From Fusobacterium sp. DD2 (GTDB lineage Bacteria; Fusobacteriota; Fusobacteriia; Fusobacteriales; Fusobacteriaceae): a stretch of DNA of 62,271 bases. Position numbers and translations under genes: made by a program. This document shows, piece by piece, positions 31,400 to 32,677 of the stretch. The DNA lies in the NCBI RefSeq assembly GCF_018205345.1, contig NZ_JADRHM010000005.1, forward strand, positions 1-62,271, written 5' to 3'. Numbering within the stretch: the stretch's first letter is position 1; the number at the start of each line of letters is the position of its first letter. Below the pieces are notes generated by a model. The model was not told where the DNA came from and made no database searches. It saw nothing but the letters and a program-made list of their open reading frames with translations.

Positions 31400-31504
31400 T
31401 TTTTTCGTGTTCAACATCTATGTTTGCCTATTTAATCTTGCTTTTTTCCCCATATGATGATACACTTCTATATTATAACGAAAATATAATTTCATTTTTT
31501 CGTT
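31400..31504. repeat. Repeated TTTTTTCGT(T/G) / AACGAAAA motifs between divergent units
   Basis: TTTTTTCGTG (31400-31409), AACGAAAA (31477-31484) and TTTTTTCGTT (31495-31504). The last two form an inverted repeat that encloses TATAAT (31485-31490), the likely -10 of the Rep_3-like gene. The first lies 19 bp upstream of the PTS operon -35. They are candidate binding sites for the adjacent Rep_3-like protein. Confidence 0.5.
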
Positions 31505-31558
31505 TTATTTTCCATTAAAAAATATTAAAAAAATAAAAAATTTTGCAAGGTGGTTAAT

Positions 31559-32677
31559 ATGTTAGATGTAAAAGAGAAATATTCCATGCTGGATTTTAAA
31601 ATGATTGGCAAGAACATCAGAATAGATTTTTCCAAACACCTTACGAAAAAAGAAAAAAAGCTTTTTCGTTATCTAAAAGTTCAGAAATACAACCATATTT
31701 CTATGGAAAAAATCTTTGAAATCTGTGGTTTTAGCAATGTTGAAGAGGTTATCCGATTTTTAAATAATCTGAAAGGAAAATCCATTGTCCTTTCGTCAGT
31801 AGAAAGACACTATTATATCTATCTAAGTATCATTCAATCTTTCTACATTAACAATAACATTATCTATATTGTTTTTTCTGATGAAATTTCAAGTGCCTTT
31901 AAGAAGGGTTCTTTTTTTGAAAACCTTGGACTTGATAATATTCTATTTTTAGAGGAAAAGTTTTCCTATAGGATCTATCATTATATTTGTAATATTGCTG
32001 ATAAAGAGATATATCTCAGTATTGATGAGTTACGTGAGATTCTTGAAATTGGGGATAGCTATAAAAGATTTTATGATTTGGAGAAAAACTTTTTAATCCC
32101 AATATTTGAAGATATAAGAAAGAACACTTCAAGAAATTTTTCCTATGAAAAGGAAAAAAATGGAGATTATAAAGGAGCCAAAATCCTCGGGATAACAATT
32201 CACAATGATGATATTGCACAGGATATTGTAAATAATAATCCATATCTTCCAATTGATAGATGCATGGATAGAATTAAAAAACATATTAAAAATTTTTCAG
32301 ATATCTATTCACTTCTTACACTGAACCTTGCAAATTATGGAGAGGATTATGTAAATAAAAAAATTGATTTTGTTCTTGATAATTTCAGTTCAAATATTGA
32401 AGATCATATTAAAACTGTATTTGAAGATAAAAAGCTGGATGCTCCATATTTTGTAATCAATAAAAAATTTAAGAATCTTTTTGATCTTCATTCTGAAATT
32501 TTAGCATTTATACATAAACATAATCTTACAAAGATATCTACATATATGTTCCCTGTAAAACTATATTCATTAAAGGATAAGGAATCTCTTCTCCTTGAGG
32601 ATAAAAATTTTGCAGTAAAAATTACATATAATAAAAATGCCATGTCAAAAGTGGAATTTTTTATAAATAATAAATAA
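31559..32677 (+). CDS. Rep_3-like (RepB-type replication initiator) winged-helix protein
   Basis: A 372-aa protein. Residues about 25-210 resemble the two winged-helix domains of plasmid Rep_3 initiators: an N-terminal helical part (KKEKKLFRYLK) and a second part with SYRIYHYICNIADKEIYLSIDELREILEI, then YKRFYDLEKNFLIPIFEDIRKNT and a final beta wing (KILGITI). The C-terminal third is not recognised. No plasmid genes are near, so it is probably a domesticated initiator acting as a DNA-binding regulator. The ATG at 31559 has AAGGTGG 6 nt upstream; an in-frame GTG at 31550 lies in that site. It is 24 bp upstream of the nhaC-type gene. Confidence 0.6.
   Translation: MLDVKEKYSMLDFKMIGKNIRIDFSKHLTKKEKKLFRYLKVQKYNHISMEKIFEICGFSNVEEVIRFLNNLKGKSIVLSSVERHYYIYLSIIQSFYINNNIIYIVFSDEISSAFKKGSFFENLGLDNILFLEEKFSYRIYHYICNIADKEIYLSIDELREILEIGDSYKRFYDLEKNFLIPIFEDIRKNTSRNFSYEKEKNGDYKGAKILGITIHNDDIAQDIVNNNPYLPIDRCMDRIKKHIKNFSDIYSLLTLNLANYGEDYVNKKIDFVLDNFSSNIEDHIKTVFEDKKLDAPYFVINKKFKNLFDLHSEILAFIHKHNLTKISTYMFPVKLYSLKDKESLLLEDKNFAVKITYNKNAMSKVEFFINNK

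Follow-up and report, generated by a model that had tools for sequence, protein, structure and literature searches.

A chromosomal Rep_3-derived protein as a likely regulator of a divergent PTS-glycosylasparaginase operon in Fusobacterium sp. DD2, with relatives across Fusobacteriota

Genes and promoter sites at the rep locus

The window analyzed here is a stretch of 62,271 nt from Fusobacterium sp. DD2 (contig NZ_JADRHM010000005.1, positions 1-62,271 of the forward strand; assembly GCF_018205345.1). It contains a gene encoding a Rep_3-derived putative regulator, hereafter rep, which extends on the plus strand from its ATG at 31559 to 32677, encodes 372 aa and is preceded by the Shine-Dalgarno sequence AAGGTGG (31547-31553, plus strand). 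On the minus strand lies an operon whose first gene encodes a PTS lactose/cellobiose-type IIA protein (31008..31322; PF02255, 2e-34), followed by genes for a glycosylasparaginase-type asparaginase (Asparaginase_2, 30031..30993; PF01112, 1.1e-67), PTS IIC (28688..29986) and PTS IIB (28378..28683). The latter two proteins cluster with those of related loci, and the equivalent genes elsewhere carry PTS_EIIC and PTS_IIB, respectively. Downstream of rep, an NhaC-family transporter gene (32702..34018, plus strand; PF03553, 1.2e-22) follows on the same strand after a gap of 24 nt without a terminator, an order that recurs in one other ortholog (L028). Given this short gap and the absence of a terminator, it is likely that the nhaC-type gene belongs to the rep transcription unit, which is inferred from sequence alone. 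A first-pass annotation had placed rep between two divergent operons; this was partly confirmed, since nhaC is co-directional with rep and the PTS operon alone is divergent. The annotation had also let the rep protein control both units and itself. For nhaC, such regulation is an inference and is plausible solely through co-transcription with rep.

The operon promoter is located on the minus strand at 31353..31381, with a -35 box TTGACT (31376-31381), a spacer of 17 bp and a -10 box TAATAT (31353-31358). The rep promoter on the plus strand (31438..31466) consists of TTGCTT, a 17-bp spacer and TACACT (31461-31466) with a TGA extension, and is conserved in nine orthologs. The motif copies that had been annotated at 31400, 31477 and 31495 are present, and their occurrence exceeds chance. 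The first is the operon-proximal half-site TTTTTTCGTG (31400..31409, plus strand; core TCGT at 31405-31408), which had been described as lying 19 bp above the PTS -35 and is repositioned here by its core centre, at -60.5 of the TTGACT/TAATAT promoter. The other two, AACGAAAA (31477-31484) and TTTTTTCGTT (31495-31504), are the arms of a 28-bp inverted repeat AACGA-N18-TCGTT (31477..31504, no strand assigned), a proposed dimer operator for autoregulation for which no binding data exist. The inverted repeat had been recognized correctly, whereas its suggested position around rep's own -10 was not: the ACGA core begins 11 nt after the rep -10, and the repeat, spanning about +4 to +31, therefore lies in the early transcribed region. 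The pattern ACGA-N17-20-TCGT has a chance expectation of 0.07 in the window, and AACGA-N16-20-TCGTT has a single occurrence in the 2.36-Mb genome. A further ACGA-N19-TCGT pair, located within the rep open reading frame (31643-31669), was rejected as a site; it is not conserved in orthologs and is probably due to chance.

No iteron array was found beside rep, where there are just two direct copies 95 bp apart and one inverted copy, and the earlier term 'iteron-binding' is loose for a layout that corresponds to a Rep-gene operator plus one half-site. In addition, no DnaA box lies near rep, TTATNCACA occurring in the window at 25958 and 37859 only, and no partition (par) or other plasmid genes were seen around it, as the annotation had stated.

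Fold and relatives of the rep protein

The rep protein comprises a first winged-helix domain (WH1, residues ~20-125), a second one (WH2, ~126-220) and a C-terminal extension (~224-372), in which a helical part precedes a small alpha/beta part. A Rep_3-like identity had been proposed from sequence, and the relation, which had been set as a test, was borne out by both profile and fold searches. Residues 154-215 match Rep3_C in Pfam (PF21205, E=8.1e-11), a domain present in all 40 family members, and PHROG 4402 (replication initiation protein) matches at 9e-11; the RepE model of NCBIfam gives 5.4e-5, far under the cut-off of that model. Pfam Rep3_N, corresponding to WH1, was detected in one of the 40 members, and this region is spanned by both the family profile and the fold match (20-225). 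The 40-member profile found RepE structures at 1e-11 with an alignment of residues 24-226, covering both winged helices and the whole of RepE. The AlphaFold2 model of the protein (pLDDT 84.6) has as its best fold neighbour the RepE dimer on its operator (2z9o, Z 13.4), with iteron complexes of RepE- and pi-type proteins also near. Within the block SYxRFYDxEKxxL, residues Y168, R170, D173 and E175 are invariant; the block aligns to RepE QSYQRMPDFRRRFL, the WH2 region serving as the RepE DNA recognition helix. Conservation of this block may explain why one DNA core is found in distant paralogs (see below), though this is an inference. The fold thus makes the protein a Rep_3 relative by membership; an initiator role is not shown, and there are no assay data for replication activity.

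The C-terminal domain gave no convincing match either in Foldseek searches of PDB and viral models or with VIA-align (best Z 6.9 over 66 residues), and its last part has weak longin/roadblock/PAS-like matches only, so that inducer sensing by this domain is conjecture. The domain of ~145 residues beyond residue 224 is common to the tested full-length chromosomal members, except for the very divergent L116 and L117, in which it was not detected at E<=10. It is partly deleted in L100, L121 and L122: these relatives of 292-311 aa (L100:2258-3193, L121:2327-3205, L122:5577-6509) lack the helical part and keep the small alpha/beta part. It is absent from the six plasmid- or prophage-type Reps examined.

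Outside Fusobacteriota, five relatives were found (L154, L157-L160), which look plasmid- or prophage-type, have no nutrient-operon pairing and lack the C-terminal domain. For the phylum to which the L160 genome belongs, a sample of 397 other genomes gave 0 matches at 1e-25. A search of 72,556 plasmids gave one weak match and no close plasmid relative, and a first attempt, a single-sequence scan of genome contigs with the rep protein, gave no matches. Two other Rep-like loci were observed. L129 (G042:C1:1-6000) encodes a true plasmid-type Rep without the family C-terminal domain, with adjacent ParA and four GGATACTTTTTCTCAC direct repeats. L128 (G062:C2:224000-242000) carries three near-identical Rep-like genes (448 aa) that are unlike the regulator family; they lie in a tandemly repeated region in which the neighbouring genes start with an RHS-like LRYVDPSGH.

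Well-studied Rep proteins have both common and distinct features. RepE of plasmid F (1REP, 2Z9O), whose monomer-dimer control is documented (PMC13028717; structure 2z9o), and pi of R6K (2NRA), a known autorepressor (Filutowicz 1985, cited in PMC4980987), likewise have two winged-helix domains and use one core sequence in two ways, alone and in inverted-repeat form at their own promoter; their autorepression is the known precedent. The Fusobacteriota proteins differ from them in having no iteron array or origin, an extra C-terminal domain, a chromosomal location and a pairing with metabolic operons. RctB of Vibrio chromosome 2 (5TBF, 5UBF) also combines Rep-like winged helices with extra domains and gave a weaker Foldseek match, but it initiates chromosome replication at 12-mer and 39-mer sites. 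Recently, TrfA of IncP plasmids was found to repress host genes in Pseudomonas aeruginosa, which its authors present as the first case of host chromosomal genes being modulated by a Rep protein (PMC12691604, published in 2025). Both cases involve an initiator-type protein that binds a chromosomal promoter and alters transcription, binding and regulation being inferred for the present family; TrfA, however, is plasmid-borne and still an initiator, whereas the Fusobacteriota genes reside in the chromosome, each dedicated to the operon next to it. No description of Rep_3 proteins that are encoded in the chromosome and devoted to regulating an operon was found in the literature searched, most subscription journals being outside the search.

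The chromosomal family and its conserved DNA sites

The genome of strain DD2 has one family copy, and relatives are present in 10 of 12 genomes of the genus and in 57 of 98 genomes of the phylum Fusobacteriota, with a maximum of 10 copies per genome. Many members reside on contigs of 1-4 Mb and are thus chromosomal. A head-to-head arrangement with the upstream gene was observed at all 71 readable loci including the window (21/21 in the genus and 50 outside it), which represent 25 protein clusters; the lone co-directional call, L125, resulted from a spurious ORF and was set aside. The divergent neighbours are transport or catabolic operons, in the majority PTS (lactose-, mannose-, fructose-, glucose- and sorbitol-type), the others being an amidohydrolase/SelA-like operon and two ABC systems for uptake. 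In other genera, too, a family regulator accompanies the asparaginase-PTS operon, even when that regulator is distant. In a quick tree, a branch with support 97 sets the chromosomal members apart, and the clades of regulators mostly track operon type, with the caveat that some branches are long and details unsure. Two members with internal stops (G070:C1:770841-771752 and G017:C6:28160-29182) are apparent pseudogenes, representing natural loss cases.

The annotation's motifs are conserved in relatives. Few blocks are common to the intergenic regions of the nine orthologous loci: GTCAAA, TCGT, TTG, TGnTA, TATRACGAA and TTTCGTY. GTCAAA, the operon -35, is invariant, and TTG with TGnTA makes up the rep promoter. 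All nine orthologs have an inverted repeat of exactly 28 bp, with the upstream core 72-73 bp before it, and the sites are also conserved in distant paralogs beside other operons. Across the family, an ACGA-N17-20-TCGT pair is found in 46 of 71 rep-upstream regions (25 clusters), compared with 0.34 expected from dinucleotide shuffles, and in none of 246 other intergenic regions of the same loci (0/40 divergent, 0/206 other). The exact inverted pattern is missing from the remaining 25/71 rep-upstream regions, and the L116 region is without any core. The base 3' of TCGT, which played no part in choosing the sites, is a pyrimidine (C or T) in 83-95% of them, indicating that TCGTY is a real consensus.

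Positions are constrained as well. Wherever a rep promoter was recognised, the inverted repeat begins 8-12 nt after its -10. Of 29 groups, 15 have the centre of the operon-side core between -59.5 and -62.5, where chance would give 1.7; most remaining groups having a core use -51.5, the inclusion of which gives 19/29. Operon promoters have good, near-consensus -35 boxes. The spacings from core to repeat (51, 62, 70-74 and 93) are near whole helical turns apart. Some of the loci behind these spacing statistics are related by shared ancestry, and the p-values are for this reason optimistic.

Proposed mechanism and rival explanations

Taken together, the RepE-like WH1-WH2 core, the family C-terminal domain, the invariable divergent pairing and the TCGTY half-sites at fixed positions suggest that the rep protein is likely a chromosomal transcription regulator derived from a Rep_3 plasmid initiator, acting as a self-repressing dimer and controlling the operon, probably as an activator. 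DNA binding, the sign of regulation and the inducer are inferred. To this extent the first-pass proposal of an initiator recruited as a transcription factor is supported. In the proposed mechanism, a dimer would bind the inverted pair just past the rep -10 and repress rep, in the manner of RepE and pi, which act likewise on their own operators, while protein bound to the lone half-site near -61 of the operon promoter would touch RNA polymerase and activate the operon. Since the spacings step by about one helical turn, a loop from half-site to inverted repeat is possible. The substrate or its phosphorylated product may act either via the C-terminal domain or by shifting the balance between monomers and dimers. 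The presence of PTS and glycosylasparaginase suggests, by analogy with the alf-2 cluster of Lactobacillus casei (PMC6960285), that the inducer here is perhaps a GlcNAc-Asn-type glycoamino acid imported by the PTS. That cluster is also divergent, with a glycosylasparaginase, a peptidase and a local regulator, AlfR2; it differs in the type of regulator and in having an MFS permease in place of the PTS. The same layout, autoregulation site and upstream-site position are known from LysR/AraC-type divergent regulators and from CRP-type class I activation at -61.5, although the protein fold of these regulators is unrelated.

The strongest rival is that the same family represses both promoters, with half-site and repeat looped together until release by an inducer. 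Such a repressive loop is possible and, given the strong, near-consensus operon -35 boxes and the helical steps in spacing, is a serious rival that cannot be excluded; moreover, the L. casei glycosylasparaginase cluster is under a repressor, AlfR2 (PMC6960285). Nevertheless, looping by itself would constrain nothing beyond the spacing of the two sites. It leaves unexplained that groups which are distant and have little common sequence all hold the upstream half-site at a constant distance from the operon -35, a layout typical of activators in contact with polymerase. Polymerase contact, and hence activation, is therefore the better reading. Far less probable is that rep is a mere bystander next to the operon, with the motifs belonging to a different regulator. 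Direct binding evidence is indeed lacking, but the motif tracks the rep gene rather than the operon type, as the contrast between rep-upstream and other intergenic regions demonstrates, and in G011, where asparaginase occurs without the PTS IIA/rep pair, no TCGT core lies upstream of the asparaginase gene. A domesticated or remnant plasmid replicon, whose rep protein still initiates at a local origin, would account for the Rep_3 core, and the phylum does contain a genuine plasmid Rep (L129, with adjacent ParA and four GGATACTTTTTCTCAC repeats), but it can be all but excluded by the lack of an iteron array, a nearby DnaA box, par genes and, among 72,556 plasmids, a close relative, together with as many as 10 chromosomal copies and strict coupling to metabolic operons.

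Beyond this locus, a bolder view would be that a plasmid Rep initiator, probably once, founded a phylum-wide class of transcription factors controlling many PTS and other nutrient operons in Fusobacteriota. Such factors would retain the monomer/dimer logic of Rep proteins, with autorepression by dimers bound to the inverted repeat and activation of the operon by monomers, or by some altered form, from the half-site near -61; this view could as readily prove wrong as right. If true, it would constitute a previously undescribed origin for a bacterial gene-regulator family, from a replication protein to dedicated transcription factors, with a clear evolutionary path in which the autorepressor came first and the regulator of a neighbour later. 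It would also explain the control of much sugar and glycoamino-acid uptake in Fusobacteriota, where profile searches indicate a replication initiator. Predicted regulatory sites are supplied for dozens of operons.

In a separate observation, a DUF7916 gene (L095:4379-5290; similarly L097:8499-9431) opens an operon that runs divergently from the gene for a Rep-like regulator. The operon includes a lactose-type PTS and, further along, the asparaginase, a context that offers a clue to what DUF7916 does.
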